This document shows, in pieces, positions 4,849 through 22,820 of a stretch of DNA of 23,689 nt. The translations under genes and the position numbers were made by a program. Origin of the DNA: a virus; IMG/VR virus record IMGVR_UViG_3300032093_000845, positions 1-23,689 of that record; one strand, given 5' to 3'. The first letter of the stretch is position 1, and the number at the start of each line of letters is the position of its first letter. Below the pieces are notes generated by a model. It saw nothing but the letters and a program-made list of their open reading frames with translations. It did not search any database and had not been told where the DNA came from.

Positions 4849-4996
4849 TCTAAAAAGTATATACTGGGAATACGAAGGCGTGGCCTCTGTCTACAAAGGG
4901 TTTAGTTTAAACGACATACGGGACATGAGTGTCCGACAAAGAGATTTTTGGTTTCGTATGGCTAAGTGGCGACTAACGGATGGAGGTGGTGGTTAA
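4811..4996 (+). CDS. Recoded C-terminal extension of the tail assembly chaperone (+1 or -2 frame)
   Basis: After the chaperone stop at 4846-4848, the +1 frame is open from 4811 to a TAA at 4994-4996. It encodes a protein-like sequence: WEYEG, KGFSLNDIRDMSVRQRDFWF and RMAKWRLTDGGGG. The 'GFSLxDIRxM ... RxxFW' pattern resembles the C-terminal part of gp26-type chaperones. The frame has no ATG, GTG or TTG before GTG 4880, and that GTG has no properly spaced ribosome binding site. Access by frameshifting inside 4811-4848 is therefore the simplest explanation. The stop overlaps the tape measure ATG (TAATG), as expected for a coupled real gene. No classical slippery heptamer is obvious, so the shift site is unresolved. 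Confidence 0.65.
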   Translation, partial: TSISTGYPFYSPNLKSIYWEYEGVASVYKGFSLNDIRDMSVRQRDFWFRMAKWRLTDGGGG

Positions 4997-7900
4997 TGGC
5001 AAATGATGATGAAATCCAGAAAATGGTTTCAAAAGAAACTCAGTCTATGGCTAAGGCTGAAGTTGGCATTAACGCTGACACCACTGATTTACGGAACATC
5101 ACAGAGGCCCTTAAAAAAGCGTCTGAGGAAGGTAAACGCCTAGCGACAAGCCTTGGTCAGGCTGTAAAAGCCATGCGACAACTAAAGGAGATGGGCCTCG
5201 TACAAGTGTACGACCAATCCGCGCATTGGAGTGGAGGTCAAGGTGGAGGTGGGGGAGGTGCTGCTGGTGGTGGGCAGCTAAGCGTCGGCAGCACCCCAGT
5301 AGCGGGCTCTAAACCCAGTCACCCAGCACCTATAACACCAGCACCAAACGCTGTTGCTGCCGCAGGAGGAGCACCACCTGGAGTTGCTGGACTACAGGGA
5401 GTACCAGGATCATTTTTTAGAGGAGCTAATCCTGGAACATTTGCAGGCGTTCCGGGAGTACTCGGTTCCGGTGGAAGTGGAGCAATAGGTGGATCGGCTC
5501 AGTTAGGAGCCGGTGGTTTTGGTGCAGGAAACATAGCATCAATAATTGGAAGTCTTGGTTCACAAATTGTTAGTGCAATTGACAAGCGTGTTGATGCTGG
5601 TAGAGGATACTCACTAGCCGCAGATAAAAGCACACTAGTGATGCAACAGCTCACAGGCATGAGCCAAACCGGAGTAATGAATAACCTAAGAATGCCATTA
5701 ACCCAGTATAAGCTTGGAGTTAATGGTATTAACGAAATGATGGATCTACAGGCAAGAACTGGTATAAGTGCCGCAGGTCAGGCCCGAAGCGTTGAAATGA
5801 TGAGAACTCTTAGTGGGTTTACCATGGACGCTGCTGGGGCTACTGGAATTATTGAAAGTATGGCTGACCCAGAAACAGTGAACAAGATGTTCATGATGAC
5901 TGGTATGAGCTTAATTGGGCCTGGTGGTAAACAAAGATCAGCTCAATCTTTGATTGAAAGTATGGCTAAGAGAGCTGGACTAATGGACCCCAAGCTTGCC
6001 GCATCGGCTATGGCTCCAGGTTCTGTATCTCGTGCAACACTATCTCAAATGGGTGTTACTGGCGACATGCAGGAACAGGTTCTTAGATTTGCACAATCAA
6101 ACGCAGCGTTTCGTAAGCGCGGTGGAAAAGGCACGTACGATCCAACAAATGAAGAAGATCGCAAGCTTATGGGTATCGATGACACATTTGCTATGGAAGC
6201 TGAGGAAACTCAGCGTCGTCGTGGAAAGCGCGAAGAGCAGTTTTATAGGGACCAGGCAGATGCGTACGCAAAATTAGAACGGCAGACACAACGCCTTACC
6301 GACGTGATGGCTAAGTTTGAGCATGCAATGGAAGGCATAATTGGCGCAAGAACCGGTGGAAGAGTTGGTCAAAAGATTCTTGGTGGTATGGCAGGAGCTG
6401 CTGGAATCGGAATGTTGGGGTTAGGTGTCGCTACCGGTGGAATTGGGTTGTTGGCTGGTGGAGCCATTCTCGGTGGTTTAGGCAAAATACTAGGCGACCC
6501 AAATACCAGTGATGATTTTGCGTCCTCAATATGGACCCCACGTAGTTCTAGTACACCAGTTACTGGGAGTAGCATGGCTACTGTACCAGCTGGTACACCT
6601 GCTGGTCCACCTCCTGCTCCTCCCCCACCAGCCATAATAGTACCACCTCCAGTAGAGGTTTGGTCTCCTGGCCAATTTGATCAATTTAAAACCGGCCTTA
6701 AAGCTACGTATACTGATAGTTTTCTCCAAACTCAATACAGTGGTAATCCTGAGTACACAATTAAAAACACTGGTGAATTTAACGAACTGAACGGAGCACT
6801 AAGAAAAGCCATAAACAGCATGGCAGACAGAGCAATGGCAGAGGCTGGACTAGACATTAACCTAGTCAGTGGTAGACGATCTACTGATGAACAAGTAAAA
6901 CTTTTCTTAGAGCGGTATCAAGTAGCGCCTAACGGTGTAAAAGAGTACAGAGACGCTTACGACGGAAAAACTTATAAAGTTAAACGATACTATGGCGCTA
7001 ACTGGATGAAAAAGCCATCTAACAGTGACCCCCCAGTTGCGGTACCAGGTAGTTCGCTGCACGAAATTGGTATGGCGGCAGACATTGACATGTCTGATCC
7101 GCGTGTCGCAGCATGGGTACGTAACAACAAATGGAGATTCAACCTGGTTTCAGGTGAGGGGGAAGAGCACCACTTACAGCTTGCTTGGACAAAAGACATG
7201 TCACTAAGTAAGTTCTTGGGCACCACCGGTTTAAGTATGGAGCAAGCAAATACTAATACCCATGTAGCCATGGGTGGAAACTCCCGTTATACAAATTCAT
7301 TTAGACCTGGTTTTGGTGTTGACATTAATAAATTTTCAGAGGCGCTCCTTAGAAGGTGGGGTTACACCATAACCCCTGAAAAAATCATGTTACTTAGATC
7401 ATGGTCCGACAAAGAAGGTACTGGTGGATCATACAACCCAATGAACGTAGTCTCTGGCAACAACCGTGTTGATCCGGCTACAGGATACGAACGAGCCGAA
7501 ACAAACTACAACGTTAACGGTGGTGGCTTGTTCCCTGTGCAAAACTTTGACAGCTTTTCACAAGGTGTTGAATACACCGCGCTGCACCTAGGTACAAACA
7601 ACTCCGCATTAATGAGCGTTTTGTCAAAACCCAACCCAACGGTTGACGAAATAAGAGGAGTACTATCCGCAGTTGGTAGAAAAACAATGCTAGGAATATT
7701 CAATGGTTACGTTGAAAAATCACAAGCTTCTGGATATGATATAAACGCTGCGTTTAACATGACCGGAACATCTGGAGTTCAAAAGATGATATCTGGTATG
7801 GACGTTGGTAAAAAAATGGCTGGATTTGCCGGTGATCCTCAGATGCCAGGTAGTGGTTCAACTTCTCCAGTATCACTTCCAAGTATTATGCCGGTGTCCC

Positions 7901-8082
7901 AATCGTCTGGAACTTCTTCAGTTGTTCATCAAGGGAGTACAGTTACTATATCACCAGTAATAAACTTGCAGACAACTGGTACTGCAGGGAATATAAGTGA
8001 GTATGATTTAAGATTAATGGCAAAGAGGATTGCAAAGTTAATCGAACAAGAAACAAACCTTGATAAGATCAGGAGAGCGTAA
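4996..8082 (+). CDS. Tape measure protein with M15 peptidase and lysozyme-like domains
   Basis: A 1028-residue protein. I chose ATG 4996 (GGAGGTGG at 4982-4989, TAATG overlap) over an in-frame GTG at 4966. Order: a helical N-terminus (about 1-70), a Gly/Ala/Pro-rich stretch (about 80-190), helical tape region (about 190-450), a hydrophobic Gly-rich segment (about 461-501) that could enter a membrane, and a proline-rich hinge (about 533-555). Next comes a VanY/M15 carboxypeptidase-like domain with SLHEIGMAADID (H689, D696) and EEHH (E723/E724, H725/H726), the zinc ligands and catalytic acid of that family. Then follows an NPLN lysozyme-like domain with WSDKEGT (E807) and NPMN (814-817). It sets tail length and likely opens host peptidoglycan during injection. 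Domain calls rest on these motifs. Confidence 0.85.
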   Translation: MANDDEIQKMVSKETQSMAKAEVGINADTTDLRNITEALKKASEEGKRLATSLGQAVKAMRQLKEMGLVQVYDQSAHWSGGQGGGGGGAAGGGQLSVGSTPVAGSKPSHPAPITPAPNAVAAAGGAPPGVAGLQGVPGSFFRGANPGTFAGVPGVLGSGGSGAIGGSAQLGAGGFGAGNIASIIGSLGSQIVSAIDKRVDAGRGYSLAADKSTLVMQQLTGMSQTGVMNNLRMPLTQYKLGVNGINEMMDLQARTGISAAGQARSVEMMRTLSGFTMDAAGATGIIESMADPETVNKMFMMTGMSLIGPGGKQRSAQSLIESMAKRAGLMDPKLAASAMAPGSVSRATLSQMGVTGDMQEQVLRFAQSNAAFRKRGGKGTYDPTNEEDRKLMGIDDTFAMEAEETQRRRGKREEQFYRDQADAYAKLERQTQRLTDVMAKFEHAMEGIIGARTGGRVGQKILGGMAGAAGIGMLGLGVATGGIGLLAGGAILGGLGKILGDPNTSDDFASSIWTPRSSSTPVTGSSMATVPAGTPAGPPPAPPPPAIIVPPPVEVWSPGQFDQFKTGLKATYTDSFLQTQYSGNPEYTIKNTGEFNELNGALRKAINSMADRAMAEAGLDINLVSGRRSTDEQVKLFLERYQVAPNGVKEYRDAYDGKTYKVKRYYGANWMKKPSNSDPPVAVPGSSLHEIGMAADIDMSDPRVAAWVRNNKWRFNLVSGEGEEHHLQLAWTKDMSLSKFLGTTGLSMEQANTNTHVAMGGNSRYTNSFRPGFGVDINKFSEALLRRWGYTITPEKIMLLRSWSDKEGTGGSYNPMNVVSGNNRVDPATGYERAETNYNVNGGGLFPVQNFDSFSQGVEYTALHLGTNNSALMSVLSKPNPTVDEIRGVLSAVGRKTMLGIFNGYVEKSQASGYDINAAFNMTGTSGVQKMISGMDVGKKMAGFAGDPQMPGSGSTSPVSLPSIMPVSQSSGTSSVVHQGSTVTISPVINLQTTGTAGNISEYDLRLMAKRIAKLIEQETNLDKIRRA

Positions 8083-16829: not shown

Positions 16830-16967
16830 ACTAGTGAGTTCACTTCTTCTTGGGAGCTGCCTTCTTGGCAGGTGCTGACTTCTTGCCCTTGGCGGGACCC
16901 TTGCCATAGCCGGGGTCCTTCTTGTCCTTAAGGCCACATCCACATGATGCACACATACTAGTTACCT
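16825..16967. repeat. 11-bp inverted repeat flanking the 38-aa gene
   Basis: AGGTAACTAGT at 16825-16835 and its exact reverse complement ACTAGTTACCT at 16957-16967 flank the small minus-strand gene at 16840-16956. On the minus strand the upstream copy contains part of that gene's GGGAGGT ribosome binding site, so pairing would mask translation. Confidence 0.6.
16840..16956 (-). CDS. Small Cys-rich, Lys/Ala/Pro-tailed protein
   Basis: A 38-residue protein. It begins MCASCGCG, a compact Cys cluster like those that bind a metal in small zinc- or iron-binding peptides. The rest is a basic tail (GKKSAPAKKAAPKKK) like the C-terminal arms of actinobacterial HU proteins and H1 histones. It has 12 lysines, all encoded by AAG, which may reflect codon bias. 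GGGAGGT sits about 8 nt upstream, so translation is well supported despite the size. It starts 1 nt after the stop of the DUF5872-like gene and is the last gene of the minus-strand operon. A DNA- or RNA-binding role is inferred from composition only. Confidence 0.7.
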   Translation of the reverse strand: MCASCGCGLKDKKDPGYGKGPAKGKKSAPAKKAAPKKK

Positions 16968-17206
16968 CCCTTCCGGTACTTGCTTGTCTTCTTTGCAATC
17001 TTATCGGGTTGTTTCACAAATTGCTTGCCTTCGGCATTACCTTTTGCTTTTGCCCGATTGGTGGCAGCTTTTTCTGATGGGGATAGAGAGTCCCATGCCT
17101 TGTCTGGTAGGTAGCGCTTCTTGCCTTTGGATTCGGAGCCGTCAGAGGTGCGCCATTTCTCATTAGTCCACTTATCAAGATCCTTTTGCGGCTTAGCTTT
17201 AGCCAT
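16958..17206 (-). CDS. DUF5872-like small basic protein
   Basis: An 82-residue, highly basic protein. Key segments are LDKWTNEKWRTSDGS, RYLPDKAWDSLSPSEKAATNR and EGKQFVKQPDK. The 'RYLPxxAWxxLSPxEKxATN ... GKQFV' arrangement is what I recall for the DUF5872 family, small proteins seen in phages, giant viruses and some bacteria. No catalytic residues are apparent. AAGGA lies 7-8 nt upstream. The ATG follows the stop of the 63-aa gene by 2 nt. The function of the family is not known to me; strong positive charge suggests nucleic-acid contact. Confidence 0.65.
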   Translation of the reverse strand: MAKAKPQKDLDKWTNEKWRTSDGSESKGKKRYLPDKAWDSLSPSEKAATNRAKAKGNAEGKQFVKQPDKIAKKTSKYRKGGN

Positions 17207-17208
17207 GG

Positions 17209-17400
17209 TCAGTCCTTGTACCCGCCGCCAGCTTCCTTGTAGCGCTTAGCCAGAAGCTGGGCTTTGCGGGCAGACCACTCACCTGGGTCGCCGCCCTTGG
17301 TGCCAGCTTTGATTTCATTGAACAGGCGCTTGCGCAGAGCAGGCTTGGTGTAGTTACCAGCCTCATTGACCTTTGATTCGGCCTTCTTTTTAGCAGCCAT
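17209..17400 (-). CDS. Small basic conserved phage protein
   Basis: A 63-residue protein from the ATG ending at 17400, which overlaps the stop of the upstream gene as TGATG. A longer start upstream at 17412 would add only four residues. The sequence is Lys/Arg/Gly rich, with NYTKPALRKRLFNEIK and GEWSARKAQLLAKRYKEAGGGYK. The latter looks like a motif shared by small viral proteins that often travel beside DUF5872-like genes; I recall it only loosely. No enzyme motif is visible. A role as an accessory nucleic-acid-binding protein is inferred. Confidence 0.6.
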   Translation of the reverse strand: MAAKKKAESKVNEAGNYTKPALRKRLFNEIKAGTKGGDPGEWSARKAQLLAKRYKEAGGGYKD

Positions 17401-17669
17401 CAGCAATCCCACTTACGAAGTGACTTGTTGATGCGTGAGTCGGGGTCGTTTGCGGTCTTCTTTGAAGTGTTCTTTTTCTTCATACCCTCCATGCGGGCAC
17501 AGAAAGACTCACGACGAGCAGCATCCTTCTTGGACCTTGCTGCGCCTTCTTTGGACACGGGGGGCTTTAAGTTATGACCCTCTTTCTTTGCAGAAGCACG
17601 ACCCTTAGCGTTTAGCCCGCCCTCGGGATCTTTACCTTCTTTACGTTGCCATGCTGGACTTTTTGCCAT
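17400..17669 (-). CDS. DUF6321-like small basic protein
   Basis: An 89-residue protein starting at the ATG ending at 17669; GAGGT lies 5 nt upstream, overlapping the dps stop. An upstream in-frame start (17726) lies inside dps and is rejected. It is Lys/Arg rich, with KSPAWQRKEGKDPEGGLNAKG, NLKPPVSKEG, RRESFCARMEGMKKK and SRINKSLRKWDC. The 'WQRxEGKxPxGGLNxKGRxS ... SFCARMxGM ... SRINKSLRKW' arrangement fits what I recall as DUF6321, found in phages. Two conserved cysteines are present. Function unknown; the charge suggests contact with nucleic acid. Confidence 0.65.
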   Translation of the reverse strand: MAKSPAWQRKEGKDPEGGLNAKGRASAKKEGHNLKPPVSKEGAARSKKDAARRESFCARMEGMKKKNTSKKTANDPDSRINKSLRKWDC

Positions 17670-17676
17670 AAATACC

Positions 17677-18111
17677 TCACTTAGTCGAGGCGCGGAGTTG
17701 CCACGCCCATTTTTGGTGCATATCAATACGACCGGAAATAAAATCAGCTATGCCCTGCTGGTCTGCTTTGGTAGCCTTTTTAAAAACATCGTTTAGAGTT
17801 TTAATGACTGACTCATTTGCGGTGAGCAAAGCTTTGGCCATGGCCTTTGGAGTAGGTTCTACATCTTTAAACGTTACAGTGGTAAGTTCATTAAACTTCT
17901 TTAGGCTAAATGGCGCGTAGTCATCCAGCTTTCTAACGTTCTCAGCAATGGGGTCGATTGAACCGTAAGCATCCTCATAAATGTCGGCAAACAGCCCGTG
18001 GTACTGACTGAAGTCTTGCCCCTCCACGTTCCAGTGATACCCATGAGCCATGAAGTAGAATGTAACCACGTCAGACATGAGTACTTTTAAAGCTTTAATT
18101 AATTCTTCCAT
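17677..18111 (-). CDS. dps: Dps-family DNA-protection ferritin
   Basis: A 144-residue Dps protein from the ATG ending at 18111; AGGAGC lies 5 nt upstream. The ferroxidase-site residues are all present with family spacing. H26 (YHWNVEG), H38 (QYHGLF), D53 and E57 (SIDPIAE) match E. coli Dps H51, H63, D78, E82. Four-helix-bundle lengths fit the usual 150-170 residues, but the N-terminal DNA-binding tail is absent or very short. It would oxidise iron with peroxide and store it, and may condense DNA. It is the first gene of the minus-strand operon. A phage Dps could protect packaged or replicating DNA; that role is inferred. Confidence 0.92.
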   Translation of the reverse strand: MEELIKALKVLMSDVVTFYFMAHGYHWNVEGQDFSQYHGLFADIYEDAYGSIDPIAENVRKLDDYAPFSLKKFNELTTVTFKDVEPTPKAMAKALLTANESVIKTLNDVFKKATKADQQGIADFISGRIDMHQKWAWQLRASTK

Positions 18112-18199
18112 TGTGCTCCTAGTCAAACGGTCACCCCAAATAATACCACCTCAACAATCGTTGCGGATTGCAAATCCGCCCGCTACGCTTCCGAGTCCA
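18112..18199. promoter_or_regulatory. Divergent promoter region between dps and the replication initiator gene
   Basis: This 88-bp gap separates divergent genes. An AT-rich core at 18138-18146 offers TATTAT (minus strand, 18145-18140) as a -10 element for dps and AATAAT (plus, 18139-18144) for the rightward gene. Neither has a good -35 partner at normal spacing. The plus-strand gene has no obvious ribosome binding site. Confidence 0.35.
18163..18179 (+). repeat. Hairpin matching a tRNA-Cys anticodon arm
   Basis: GCGGATT-GCA-AATCCGC is a perfect 7-bp inverted repeat, 21 nt before the initiator ATG. It reads like a tRNA-Cys (GCA) anticodon stem-loop, but no D-arm, T-arm or acceptor stem can be built around it. 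It may be an operator or a 5' leader hairpin. Confidence 0.45.
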
Positions 18200-19453
18200 A
18201 TGGGAACTAGCAACGTATTTGGTGGGCGATTTATAGCCGTGCCCGAGTGGGCCTTGGCCTACATAAACGAGCATGGGCAACCACGCGACCTACAGATTCT
18301 GACTTGCCTTGTGTCAATGATAAACTTGCACGATAAGTCGGTAACTGTGTCTGTGGTAGACCTAGCGAAAGTCGCCCGCACTTCAAAAGAAACTGTAAAG
18401 AGATCACTCAAGTGGTTGTCCGATAACTTTGTAATTGGTGTTACGGTTGGCAAAAAGCCAAGCCCAAACACCTACACGGTACACTACACACAGCAAGTAA
18501 TAGGGTCATCAGTGACCCCATATAGGGTCATGGATGACCCATTGATAGGCACACCAGTGACCCCATTCGGGGTAGGGGGTGGGGTCACACATGACCCTAT
18601 CAAAACGATTGAAATCCCAGCGTGCGATGGGTTTTCTGAAACCCCTAGAGTATTACTACTATTGAATAGAGAAAATACAGAATCTATAAAGAGGGCCGAT
18701 GGCCAGGATGGTATGGTTGTAGACATGATTTTAGGTGCAGACCCAAACGAAATCTCTAAGGTTGAAGAACCGGTAAAACGCAAACCGCGTCCAGAGGTAA
18801 ACAACCTAGTAAACTACTTCGTATATCACCCACGATCAGTGATGAGTTGCTCCTACACTTTCCAAGAAACTCAAATACTGAGAAGAACCATGCGGTTGTT
18901 GCTTGACTCAGGATTGACACGGGCATCCATTGCAAAAATGATTGATAAGTTCTTCAGCACAGACCGTATGCGGTCAGCAGATTCACCAGTACATATGTTC
19001 TCTAGCAAAGCTGTACAGCAGTCATTGATGGAAAAGGTTGAAACTGAGCTGGATAGTGACACCAGCCCGGTGCTCACGTTGATGCTTAACGATTTCAACA
19101 GAGACAACGTACAACTACCGTGGGACTCATCGTCAGACAAACACCTGCGCAACACCGTGATTATGACTGCAATAGACGCGTGCTATCGCTACCCAGAAGT
19201 AGTTGCTAGAGTTATTGAATCAACTGCGGACTTCTCAGTTCCAGAGTTTAGAAATAAACTTTCAGCCCTTAACTCGCTGGTTAAGTGGCATCTCAATACA
19301 GAGGATTGCGATAGAGATGAGCTCCTTAGCACCCTCTCCGATATCACACTTCCAAAAGAATTGCTTGCTAAAACACGCTCATCCTTGAGACCCGCTGCTG
19401 ATACGATTGTGTCAGCAATTTACAATTACAGAAGAGGTTCTCATGGGGTATGA
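18200..19453 (+). CDS. Probable phage replication initiator, winged-helix type
   Basis: A 417-residue protein if it starts at ATG 18200; no ribosome binding site is obvious, so the start is uncertain. Residues about 28-97 look like a winged helix: LQILTCLVSMI, VDLAKVARTSKETVKRSLKWL and a wing (NTYTVHYTQ), as in phage replisome organisers and initiators. Residues about 101-133 form a low-complexity Pro/Val/Thr/Gly linker whose DNA carries the palindrome cluster at 18503-18597. The C-terminal ~230 residues are helical and may contact the loader or helicase. It heads the replication operon. An initiator with its origin inside its own gene would parallel lambda O. The specific family is not identified. 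Confidence 0.6.
   Translation: MGTSNVFGGRFIAVPEWALAYINEHGQPRDLQILTCLVSMINLHDKSVTVSVVDLAKVARTSKETVKRSLKWLSDNFVIGVTVGKKPSPNTYTVHYTQQVIGSSVTPYRVMDDPLIGTPVTPFGVGGGVTHDPIKTIEIPACDGFSETPRVLLLLNRENTESIKRADGQDGMVVDMILGADPNEISKVEEPVKRKPRPEVNNLVNYFVYHPRSVMSCSYTFQETQILRRTMRLLLDSGLTRASIAKMIDKFFSTDRMRSADSPVHMFSSKAVQQSLMEKVETELDSDTSPVLTLMLNDFNRDNVQLPWDSSSDKHLRNTVIMTAIDACYRYPEVVARVIESTADFSVPEFRNKLSALNSLVKWHLNTEDCDRDELLSTLSDITLPKELLAKTRSSLRPAADTIVSAIYNYRRGSHGV
18503..18690. other. Candidate origin of replication: palindrome cluster plus AT-rich stretch
   Basis: Three perfect 16-bp palindromes GGGTCA-N4-TGACCC lie at 18503-18518, 18525-18540 and 18582-18597; a relaxed copy, GGGTTT-N4-AAACCC, lies at 18629-18644. 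A 12-bp direct repeat CAGTGACCCCAT occurs at 18510-18521 and 18555-18566. Immediately after, 18651-18690 is 80% A+T. Initiator-binding repeats beside an AT-rich region inside the initiator gene is the lambda-like origin layout. Confidence 0.6.
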
Positions 19454-19658
19454 CGGTGTGTTTGCATTCGCAAGTTTTGAAGACCTTGTTCACTTTGTGA
19501 ATTGGGTCACATCATCATTTGATGACCCACAAGAGTTCAAAGACTGGATAGAGTCACGGACTCTCGACTTTGCAGAAATCGACAACCAATTTTGGAGCAT
19601 AATTGAAAATGGCTATTATTCGGAAAGCAACGGCTCAGACCTTCCCAGTTCCGACTGA
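19443..19658 (+). CDS. Small acidic protein of unknown function
   Basis: A 71-residue acidic protein from ATG 19443, which lies inside the last codons of the initiator gene; AGAGG precedes it by 7 nt. An in-frame ATG at 19407 would lie deeper in the initiator gene without a suitable ribosome binding site. It has FASFEDLVHFVNWV and FKDWIESRTLDFAEI, giving two likely amphipathic helices, and a Ser/Asp-rich end. I do not recognise it. It overlaps both the initiator gene and the loader gene, so it is probably part of the replication module. Confidence 0.55.
   Translation: MGYDGVFAFASFEDLVHFVNWVTSSFDDPQEFKDWIESRTLDFAEIDNQFWSIIENGYYSESNGSDLPSSD
19504..19528. repeat. Extra GGGTCA/TGACCC inverted pair
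   Basis: GGGTCA (19504-19509) and TGACCC (19523-19528) form an inverted pair with a 13-nt spacer, using the same half-sites as the origin candidate about 0.9 kb upstream. It falls in the 71-aa gene. Confidence 0.4.
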
Positions 19659-20238
19659 TTGGAAATCAGAAAAATGGTGGCGCAATCGTTCAACTGACGA
19701 GCGCCTGTTTCACACCCGCATACCCACTAGGTGGTTGTCGTTTACTCTAGACAACCTAGAAGTCAGCGATTCAACAAAGTCTGACGTTTCAGAGTGGATT
19801 GCAAACTACCAACCAGGAGACAGTCTGTTCTTGCATGGCAAGTCTGGTTGTGGCAAGAGCGTTGTTGCTCAAGCCGTTCTTGCTCAGCTAGTCGCAAACA
19901 ATGAACTGTCTGGGAGATTTGTTAGCAGTGATCGGTACATCGACATGCTGAAAGACACCTTTGAGCAGGACGGTGGGTTGCTCCCAGAGATGTACTCCAT
20001 GCCCTACCTACTAAAATACATTCAGGGTGTGTTTGACATTGTGATGCTTGATGGTGTTGGGCAGGAACGAGAGACAGACTTTTCAACACATGAGATAGGT
20101 AGCTTGATTAGACGCAGATACGAAGACACTAGATCCATGATCATTACAACAACCATGGGAGTCATGGACTTCAATCGTCGGTACGGTGATCGTGTAAAGG
20201 TAGCGACAACGGAGATGACCGAGATTAGGGTTTCATAA
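19603..20238 (+). CDS. DnaC-like helicase loader, AAA+ ATPase
   Basis: A 211-residue protein from TTG 19603 (GGAG 5 nt upstream). ATG 19609 is the alternative start and changes only two residues. Walker A is GKSGCGKS (residues 79-86). Walker B is FDIVMLDG (144-151), where the usual second acidic residue after D150 is Gly. A likely sensor 1 stretch MIITTTMG lies at 179-186 after a basic helix (RRRYEDTRS). This is the DnaC/IstB-like ATPase layout, with an N-terminal segment that would contact the helicase. It overlaps the upstream gene by about 50 nt and its TAA overlaps the next ATG. It would load the DnaB-like helicase encoded two genes later. Confidence 0.85.
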   Translation: MKMAIIRKATAQTFPVPTDWKSEKWWRNRSTDERLFHTRIPTRWLSFTLDNLEVSDSTKSDVSEWIANYQPGDSLFLHGKSGCGKSVVAQAVLAQLVANNELSGRFVSSDRYIDMLKDTFEQDGGLLPEMYSMPYLLKYIQGVFDIVMLDGVGQERETDFSTHEIGSLIRRRYEDTRSMIITTTMGVMDFNRRYGDRVKVATTEMTEIRVS

Positions 20239-20681
20239 TGGAGCGTGGGGATATATCCGATTACACGACGATTGCCCAATCGTGTATATGGGAAGGGGTT
20301 TTGGCAAACCCACCTGAAGGATTTACTTCAAAAACTCGTTATCGTCTGTACGAGAGAGCCAACAATTGGGAGTCAGCTATACCAATGTGGAAGCCGAACG
20401 ACCTATCGGTTCGTTCAATTGCAGACTGTACAAACAGGCTTCACATCGGTACTGACGTAATCACGTTTCTTTCACAGGACGCCGTAGACCCTATATACAA
20501 CTGGCTCCTTCGGAAAGGAATTACCACAACCGTGTTGTATTACCCGTCAGCCAAAGAGTATGCTCTCGACCTGCGTTACAACCGGGGAATAAAAACTGTC
20601 TACGTTGCCAACGACGATGATGCTTTCACGATAGGCTTACGAGCTCACGTCGTTCAACCAAACACTGCTTGGAGAATTTGA
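20238..20681 (+). CDS. Unknown protein in the replication operon
   Basis: A 147-residue protein whose ATG overlaps the loader stop (TAATG) and whose TGA overlaps the helicase ATG (TGATG). It is locked between loader and helicase. The N-terminal half is mixed (RYRLYERANNWESA). The C-terminal half looks like alternating strands and helices: TTTVLYYPSAKEYALDLRY, then GIKTVYVANDDDAF. The 'hydrophobic strand - NDDD' end recalls the acidic tip of a nucleotide-binding fold, but no family is recognised. The context suggests a replisome or nucleotide-handling accessory factor. Confidence 0.6.
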   Translation: MERGDISDYTTIAQSCIWEGVLANPPEGFTSKTRYRLYERANNWESAIPMWKPNDLSVRSIADCTNRLHIGTDVITFLSQDAVDPIYNWLLRKGITTTVLYYPSAKEYALDLRYNRGIKTVYVANDDDAFTIGLRAHVVQPNTAWRI

Positions 20682-21934
20682 TGGCTTCCAGTGAGCTGTA
20701 TCTCGTTTCAAAAATCATTCAAGAAAAAGACATGACGACGCCAGTGCGAGCAGGACTAAAGCCTGATCACTTCACTGGGTCGTGGGTAGAGGTGTGGTCT
20801 TGGCTACTTGACTTTCAAAGAACACACGGAGCAGTACCGACTGAGCGGGTATTCTCACAAGAGTTTGGTGACATTCATTTGGAGGATGCATCAGGCGAAA
20901 CATTCTCCAGATTGATCGATGAGGTTCTGTCTGCTTATCGGCAGAGAACCATCATGGATTCTTTGTCTCACGCCATACCTGCAATCAACAACAATGATAT
21001 TGACGACGCAATGGCCGCTCTTGCGGCTGGTCTACAGAAAGCGTCAGTTGAATCGTCAAGACTTCGTGACATTGATATCATTCAAAACTGGGAAAACCGC
21101 ATGTCTCGTTACGAAGAGATGCGCAACACACCAAACGCTTTGCGTGGTATACCAACAGGGTTTCATGGTCTTGACAGAATCACTCACGGACTACGCCCAC
21201 AACAGTTTATTGTCTTTGCTGGAGAGCCCAAGCGAGGAAAGTCATTGTTTGCTTTGATCTTGGCTAACTCAGCACACATCCACGGCAAGAGACCATTGTT
21301 TGTTTCGTTTGAGATGAGTATTGAGGAACAGGAAGCTCGGTACGACTCACTTATTTCCAGAGTTCCTTACACACGGATACTTTCAGGAGATTTGTCAAAT
21401 GCGGACATGGCAAAAATCAAGCGTGCATTGAGTCTCCGAAAGAACATGCAACCGTTTGTGTTTAGCGAAGACACATCTTCTCTAACTACTGTCACAGCTC
21501 TGGCTGGCAAAGTACAGGAGTATCAACCGGACTTGCTTGTTGTCGACGGTGTGTACTTGATGGACGATGAAGAGGGTGAAGCCAAGGGTTCCCCACAAGC
21601 ACTGACCAACATCACTAGAGCACTAAAGCGACTTGCCCAACGGTTTGACATTCCTGTCGTAGCCACTACTCAGGTTCTCTCTTGGAAGCTACAGAACAGA
21701 AAGACAAGAGCAGTTACAGCTGACGCAATTGGTTACACCTCGTCGTTTGCACAGGACGCTGACTTGATCCTTGGTGTAGAGCGCAACCCAGACGTTGATG
21801 ATCAAGCAATTATCAGAGTTGTCCTAGCAAGAACTGCACCAACTGGAGAAGTGCATGTAAAGTGGGACTGGTCTACTATGGAGTTTGAGGAAGTAAACGA
21901 CTATGACGACTACATCAACCCCTCATTCGATTAA
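20681..21934 (+). CDS. dnaB: Replicative DNA helicase, DnaB-like
   Basis: A 417-residue DnaB-family helicase from ATG 20681 (GGAG 8 nt upstream, TGATG overlap). A TTG at 20669 would add four residues. Residues about 1-110 match a short DnaB N-terminal domain. The RecA-like core has GIPTGFHGLDRITHGLRPQQ, then Walker A GEPKRGKS (181-188), FVSFEMS with the catalytic Glu (E211), Walker B LLVVDG (285-290) and a VATTQVL sensor region. The C-terminal GEVHVKWDWSTMEFEE is the usual closing strand. It is shorter than bacterial DnaB (about 470). It would unwind the fork after loading by the DnaC-like protein. Confidence 0.93.
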   Translation: MASSELYLVSKIIQEKDMTTPVRAGLKPDHFTGSWVEVWSWLLDFQRTHGAVPTERVFSQEFGDIHLEDASGETFSRLIDEVLSAYRQRTIMDSLSHAIPAINNNDIDDAMAALAAGLQKASVESSRLRDIDIIQNWENRMSRYEEMRNTPNALRGIPTGFHGLDRITHGLRPQQFIVFAGEPKRGKSLFALILANSAHIHGKRPLFVSFEMSIEEQEARYDSLISRVPYTRILSGDLSNADMAKIKRALSLRKNMQPFVFSEDTSSLTTVTALAGKVQEYQPDLLVVDGVYLMDDEEGEAKGSPQALTNITRALKRLAQRFDIPVVATTQVLSWKLQNRKTRAVTADAIGYTSSFAQDADLILGVERNPDVDDQAIIRVVLARTAPTGEVHVKWDWSTMEFEEVNDYDDYINPSFD

Positions 21935-22820
21935 CATCGCTCAAGTCCTAGAGTCAGTGGGCGTAGAGATCAAGCGAGTTGGTGAACGAGAGATCACCGG
22001 TAAATGCCCTGTTCACATTAGGACGGTTGGGCGACATGACAACTCCCCGTCATGGAGCATGAATGCCAACACCGGACTATGGATTTGCTTTTCCTGCGGA
22101 GCCAGAGGGTCTTTGTCCTCACTTCTGTACGAACTGACTGGTGGAGCCAACTCTCTTGACATACAGAAGATGTTGGTTGAGTCTTCTTTTGAAGCCCTAA
22201 AAGCACCAAAGATCGTACAAGAAGAAACCTACGTAGATCGAGATGTGTTCTTTGGGTTCGCAAGAGTACCAGAAGCTTTGTGTGAGTCAAGAAACCTTGA
22301 CCCAGAGCTAACGCACAAGCATGGCGTTAGGTGGAACAAAGATCACAGAGCCTGGGCCATACCGATAATGTCGCCAACAGGTCGCTTAGAGGGTTGGCAA
22401 GAGAAGAAGCATGGTAGTGTGCTGAACTACCCAAACGGAGTAAAAAAGTCCAAGACTCTATTTGGCATAGAACGCTTTAGAAGCACTACAGCTGTACTTG
22501 TTGAATCGCCATTGGACGTAGTTCGGTTTGCATCTCTTGGGTTAGATGCTCAGGCATTAGGTACCTTCGGTGCGTATGTATCTGATGAACAACTAAGATT
22601 AACTTTGTATGTCGCTGATAGAATTGTTGTAGCTATGGACAACGATGACGCTGGGATTGCTTCTAGTAAAAAGATTTACAAAGCAATAGGTACACCAAGA
22701 GCAGGGCTTTTGTGGTGGAACTACAGTGGTTCAGACTGCAAGGACATAGGTGACATGGAAGACGAGGAAATTAAGGTAGGATTAGATACCGCAACTGTCC
22801 TACCACCTTGGATTACCTAA
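21903..22820 (+). CDS. DnaG-type primase, short form
   Basis: A 305-residue protein starting at ATG 21903, 32 nt inside the helicase gene, with GAGGAAG upstream. The N-terminal zinc-binding domain has CPVH (35-38) and CFSCG (62-66), the CHCC set of DnaG. A TOPRIM-like core follows, with VLVESPLDV (E201) and VVAMDNDDAG (D246, D248, D249), the acidic metal-binding residues. The length is about half that of bacterial DnaG, so the helicase-binding C-terminal domain is missing and priming must be recruited another way. It would make RNA primers behind the DnaB-like helicase. Confidence 0.85.
   Translation: MTTTSTPHSINIAQVLESVGVEIKRVGEREITGKCPVHIRTVGRHDNSPSWSMNANTGLWICFSCGARGSLSSLLYELTGGANSLDIQKMLVESSFEALKAPKIVQEETYVDRDVFFGFARVPEALCESRNLDPELTHKHGVRWNKDHRAWAIPIMSPTGRLEGWQEKKHGSVLNYPNGVKKSKTLFGIERFRSTTAVLVESPLDVVRFASLGLDAQALGTFGAYVSDEQLRLTLYVADRIVVAMDNDDAGIASSKKIYKAIGTPRAGLLWWNYSGSDCKDIGDMEDEEIKVGLDTATVLPPWIT

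Follow-up and report, generated by a model that had tools for sequence, protein, structure and literature searches.

An IMG/VR virus sequence of 23,689 nucleotides (IMGVR_UViG_3300032093_000845, positions 1 to 23,689), the whole of which was analysed and is called the window here, carries palindromic sites and an AT-rich stretch inside the gene of a predicted replication initiator. What does this DNA do besides encoding protein? An earlier note, made from the letters alone, had read it as a likely origin. This reading is supported by the conservation of the sites, by the predicted fold of the protein and by an order of iterons and AT-rich DNA that is found throughout the family. We strongly infer from the sequence evidence that the array and the AT-rich block are an origin, and positions 18503-18704 are very probably a phage replication origin embedded in the initiator gene.

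The initiator gene and its predicted structure

18200 to 19453, plus strand: initiator gene, 417 amino acids (AlphaFold2 model; weak PHROG match)

The start of the gene was placed at the ATG at 18200, since the relative L008 has an in-frame stop upstream. Promoter-like TTGCGG and TACGCT elements, read by eye, stand directly 5' of this ATG (18140-18200), and similar elements are seen upstream of the initiator gene in relatives. A leaderless transcript would fit their position.

The protein was modelled with AlphaFold2 from a 15-sequence alignment, with moderate overall confidence (pLDDT 67). The model predicts a winged helix (residues 16-96), a disordered linker (residues 101-193) and a helical C-terminal domain (residues 198-414), with residues 63-75, KETVKRSLKWLSD, as the recognition helix. 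The array, the AT-rich block and a short inverted repeat encode the segment predicted to be disordered, in agreement with the earlier description of the array as lying in the low-complexity linker of a winged-helix protein. The best fold matches in the PDB are weak and mostly to MarR/ArsR-type regulators; the RepA_N structures 4pt7, 4pql and 5kbj (E 0.08-0.16) appear among the many MarR/ArsR entries. The best PHROG match is likewise weak (phrog_270, 'replication initiation protein', E 0.036). The initiator has no match in Pfam at E 0.1, lambda O models included, and no detectable relatives in the cultured-phage collection; its inferred mode of working resembles that of known systems.

Four palindromes on an 11.2-bp lattice

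18503 to 18518, unstranded: iteron 1, exact GGGTCA-N4-TGACCC
18525 to 18540, unstranded: iteron 2, exact
18548 to 18563, unstranded: iteron 3, degenerate (GGCACACCAGTGACCC); exact at the same offset in L084, L037 and L078
18582 to 18597, unstranded: iteron 4, exact

Three exact palindromes had been reported, the first two starting 22 bp apart, together with seven GGGTCA half-sites in about 95 bp. The palindromes are present at 18503, 18525 and 18582, the first two with that spacing, and seven half-sites were counted within 18503-18597. A search of the contig for further exact copies of GGGTCA-N4-TGACCC returned none beyond these three, where about 0.0009 would be expected from base composition. 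When two mismatches were allowed in the palindrome, a degenerate extra site that had been overlooked, GGCACA-CCAG-TGACCC, was recovered 23 bp past site 2. We count it as a member of the array, because the same gene offset holds an exact site in the three relatives listed above. The full array thus consists of four sites with start spacings of 22, 23 and 34. The relaxed copy GGGTTT-N4-AAACCC that had been proposed as a further site does exist, at 18629-18644, but relatives do not retain it and it is probably a chance occurrence. A 25-bp inverted pair, GGGTCA-N13-TGACCC, in the next ORF (19504-19528) was also considered and set aside as likely due to chance, since its second half-site is retained solely in a relative of 84% identity.

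Over all arrangements, the start spacings are 22, 23, 33, 34 and 45. These fit a lattice of 11.2 bp with a coherence of 0.937, compared to -0.05 at 10.5 bp, which is the repeat of relaxed B-DNA. Random arrays generated under the same codon-frame constraint never matched the lattice fit (0 of 3000, and 0 of 2000 for a conservative subset). Underwinding of the DNA inside a complex is one possibility for a lattice that differs from the relaxed repeat, and the difference makes DNA strain by initiator complexes testable.

Conservation of the sites across relatives

Relatives were collected in two independent searches, one with the palindrome pattern in IMG/VR and one with the initiator protein alone. 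Two palindromes 2-30 bp apart were found in 55 IMG/VR stretches, as against one for a reversed-pattern control. Most of the 55 lie in homologs of the window initiator, down to 27-28% identity, and many of the remaining matches sit just 3' of another winged helix. The protein-only search recovered homologs down to 26-28% identity. By our own count, at least two exact sites are present in 18 of the 22 non-redundant groups whose sequence includes the linker; in the remaining four, sites stand at matching positions but in altered form. The palindromes have been kept in relatives whose linker and whole protein have diverged to this extent. Relatives with the same protein and no sites were looked for, and none was seen; the members that depart from the pattern have changed palindromes, and in one lineage the recognition helix has changed too. 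Of 12 long contigs (73-96 kb), nine contain the exact palindrome, in each case only within the initiator gene, and the three that lack it come from variant-site lineages.

The half-site bases are invariant in homologs down to 28% amino acid identity, whilst the N4 centre varies. The sites are read in two codon frames, which encode different peptides (GS..T and V..DP), and the third frame would give an in-frame TGA. Thus, selection acts on the DNA. The linker peptides do look repetitive, and the repeats might be thought to arise simply from a conserved low-complexity peptide (GSxVTP / VxxDP). However, one DNA word yields two peptides, its half-site bases stay constant while the amino acids change, and the linker, which is predicted to be disordered, does not align otherwise. 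A peptide origin of the repeats is already contradicted by these observations, and we give it practically no probability.

Selection on the nucleic acid might also reflect RNA, as every 6-4-6 palindrome could fold as a hairpin in the initiator mRNA and act as an attenuator or stability element. The stems of such hairpins would be expected to drift with compensation, yet the GGGTCA stem is invariant between proteins of 28% identity. The 11.2-bp lattice also speaks against RNA hairpins, as do the rare site changes, which accompany changes in the DNA-recognition helix (see below). We regard hairpins as a highly improbable explanation of the palindromes.

A melt-prone block follows the array

18651 to 18690, unstranded: AT-rich, TpA-rich block, predicted DNA-unwinding element, 53 bp past the last iteron
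18694 to 18704, unstranded: short GC-rich inverted repeat GGCC-GAT-GGCC flanking the AT block (suggestive only)

The block at 18651-18690 is 80% AT, as had been claimed, and by nearest-neighbour energy no other 40-mer in the 23.7-kb window is less stable. The corresponding blocks of three long relatives also rank among the weakest 40-mers: first in 75 kb in one, and within the top 0.006% and the top 0.023% in the other two. In every family member, the most AT-rich downstream stretch starts about 32-56 bp past the last site, and it lies at or near the AT maximum of its gene. Codon choice within the block is strongly skewed: Ile is ATA in 81% of cases (14% elsewhere), Val is GTA in 100% (24% elsewhere), Leu is TTA or CTA in 96% (29% elsewhere) and Arg is AGA in 76% (16% elsewhere). 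The mean AT content is 0.758, compared to 0.620 expected from the same peptides, with a z of 14 that overstates independence because the sequences are related. Judged by codon usage, the amino acids do not account for the AT richness of the block. TAG is 3-fold enriched in the block. We do not claim a DnaA-trio reading, as easy strand melting alone accounts for the TpA-rich codons.

Of 16 relatives, 14 have a short GC-rich inverted repeat at a similar place 3' of the AT block. Pairing is complete in a subset of seven sequences, with compensatory changes at two of the pairs. A single joint alignment of the hairpin gave no support, because the hairpins are of two types whose registers differ. 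We treat the repeat as suggestive only, since most of these initiator genes contain hairpins of the same or greater strength at other places.

The AT block also bears on whether the palindromes are transcription operators, for the initiator or for another regulator, with no origin present. Palindromic sites of winged-helix proteins are typically operators, the predicted fold resembles MarR/ArsR regulators, and initiators frequently autoregulate. However, the array begins 303 bp inside the gene, with no copy near the start codon, where the promoter-like elements stand, and operators would leave both the conserved, codon-biased AT block and the lattice unexplained. We consider it improbable that the sites are operators only.

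Recognition helix and site sequence change together

Within the family, proteins with the helix sequence TVKR have GGGTCA sites. In L156 and L157, the helix reads TVQR and the sites read AGGTCA-N4-TGACCT, with both arms changed in two copies and the spacing unchanged; the residue preceding the helix change also differs (E to K). The more distant proteins L181 and L187 combine a TVIR helix with GTGTCA-N4-TGACAC. L162-type proteins retain KR, preceded by SPST, and the right arm of their sites is mostly TGACCT. The covariation comes from few lineages; the change of the recognition helix together with both arms of the palindrome points to the initiator itself as the probable binding protein. These naturally varying initiator/site pairs could be used to test origin choice and opening by winged-helix initiators.

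Outside the family, all nine array-bearing winged-helix proteins, most of them HTH_36 and one RepA_N, have KR at the helix position, compared to 2 of 15 relatives not chosen by the motif (Fisher p 4e-5, a correlation). As evidence to the contrary, the LKR helix of LASTA, a cultured Klebsiella phage, is not accompanied by this array.

Replication genes and a proposed mechanism

19603 to 20238, plus strand: DnaC-like AAA+ helicase loader, which probably works with the initiator (phrog_50, E 2e-18; IstB_IS21, E 6e-6)
20669 to 21934, plus strand: DnaB-like replicative helicase (PF03796, E 4e-37)
21903 to 22820, plus strand: DnaG-type primase with CHC2 zinc finger and Toprim (PF01807, PF13155; phrog_47, E 4e-34)

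Since TubR structures are among the weak fold matches, the array might be a partition (centromere-like) site of a TubR/ParB-like protein. In contrast, the neighbouring genes encode a loader, DnaB and primase, a melt-prone block is typical of origins, and no partition family was found among the window proteins scanned. A partition site thus has very little probability, and we retain the replication origin as our reading. Cumulative GC skew, calculated for three long relatives, showed no consistent inflection at the site and was uninformative, because skew follows gene direction.

In the mechanism that we propose for the origin, the N-terminal winged helix, probably as a dimer, would bind each 16-bp palindrome. 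Initiator copies on the regular 11.2-bp lattice would then assemble into a nucleoprotein complex, and the strain that it puts on the DNA could open the TpA-rich block at 18651-18690. The helical C-terminal domain may recruit the phage DnaC-like loader, which would load the DnaB encoded by the phage onto the strand thus exposed, with primase acting next. The protein segment encoded by the origin itself would serve as a flexible tether only. The analysis provides a base-resolved origin prediction for an uncultured myovirus-like phage family.

The closest cultured DnaB is that of Streptomyces phage BRock (35% identity), which hints at an actinobacterial host. Further genes lie on the other side of the initiator. 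A Dps-like ferritin-fold protein (17677-18126, minus strand; PF00210, E 1e-17; phrog_3636, 'DNA binding protein') is divergent from the initiator gene, and three consecutive small lysine-rich proteins, one of them a DUF6321 protein, are encoded at 16958-17726 on the minus strand. At 4966-8082, a VanY D-alanyl-D-alanine carboxypeptidase domain (PF02557, E 4e-7) is embedded in a tail tape-measure-like protein.

Comparison with lambda O and pSK41 Rep

In lambda, the loader gene lies downstream of O. The lambdoid origin is found in the middle of the O gene and consists of iterons and an AT-rich region (PMC7466680), and O dimers bind the iterons, which are inverted repeats (PMC5043065). The earlier note had likened the window to this layout, and the likeness holds across the family, with iterons and then an AT-rich element inside the initiator gene. 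As in lambda O, the window iterons fall in an inter-domain linker, here a predicted one, and an AT-rich predicted unwinding element adjoins them. The two systems differ in that the window sites have a different sequence, form perfect palindromes and follow an 11.2-bp lattice, the window protein lacks a lambda O Pfam match, and the window phage has its own DnaC-type loader, DnaB and primase in place of lambda P.

The plasmid initiator pSK41 Rep offers a second comparison. Its N-terminal domain is a winged helix that binds four boxes inside rep, its central part, encoded by the origin, is a dispensable linker, and its C-terminal domain contacts DnaG primase (PMC5703833). Similarly, the array and AT block of the window, our inferred origin, lie in the central linker of the initiator gene. 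However, the window protein does not match the RepA_N family (PF06970).

The same DNA word in other replicons

The GGGTCA-N4-TGACCC word also occurs with other winged-helix proteins. Six HTH_36 (PF13730) proteins, L044, L063, L070, L073, L074 and L081, have the same array just past the winged helix; L044 and L081 fall below Pfam's cut-off for HTH_36. In comparison, the window protein has no PF13730 match at E 0.1 and its sequence differs outside the winged helix. The RepA_N protein of Amphibacillus cookii (L107) has three exact copies in its gene. An open-access literature search for GGGTCA with iterons gave a match that, when examined, had GGGTCA in a primer only. We suggest, as a tentative idea that is rather unlikely as a whole, that the word is common to several winged-helix initiator groups (this family, the HTH_36 phage proteins and the RepA_N protein), that the helix residues KR, QR or IR set the outer half-site bases, and that the 11.2-bp lattice reflects underwound DNA held by the initiator. 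If this were true, origins of uncultured phages and plasmids could be predicted from sequence.

Palindrome pairs with 23-bp spacing were observed outside long ORFs in three Rhodobacteraceae genomes (L091:4175-4213, L100:6119-6157, L101:4953-4991); these are possible plasmid origins. Planctomycete and Thermoguttaceae genomes (L092, L093, L096, L099, L102) contain dispersed GCGAGCGGGGTCA-N4-TGACCCCG repeats, and we rejected the motif matches there as origins, as they look like dispersed repeats that are apparently unrelated to origins. Finally, Gordonia phage Chickadee encodes a winged-helix protein with the helix TVRR (L206:1453-2370), whose linker DNA holds ACGTGGACA(C) in four copies and may follow the same design with a different word.
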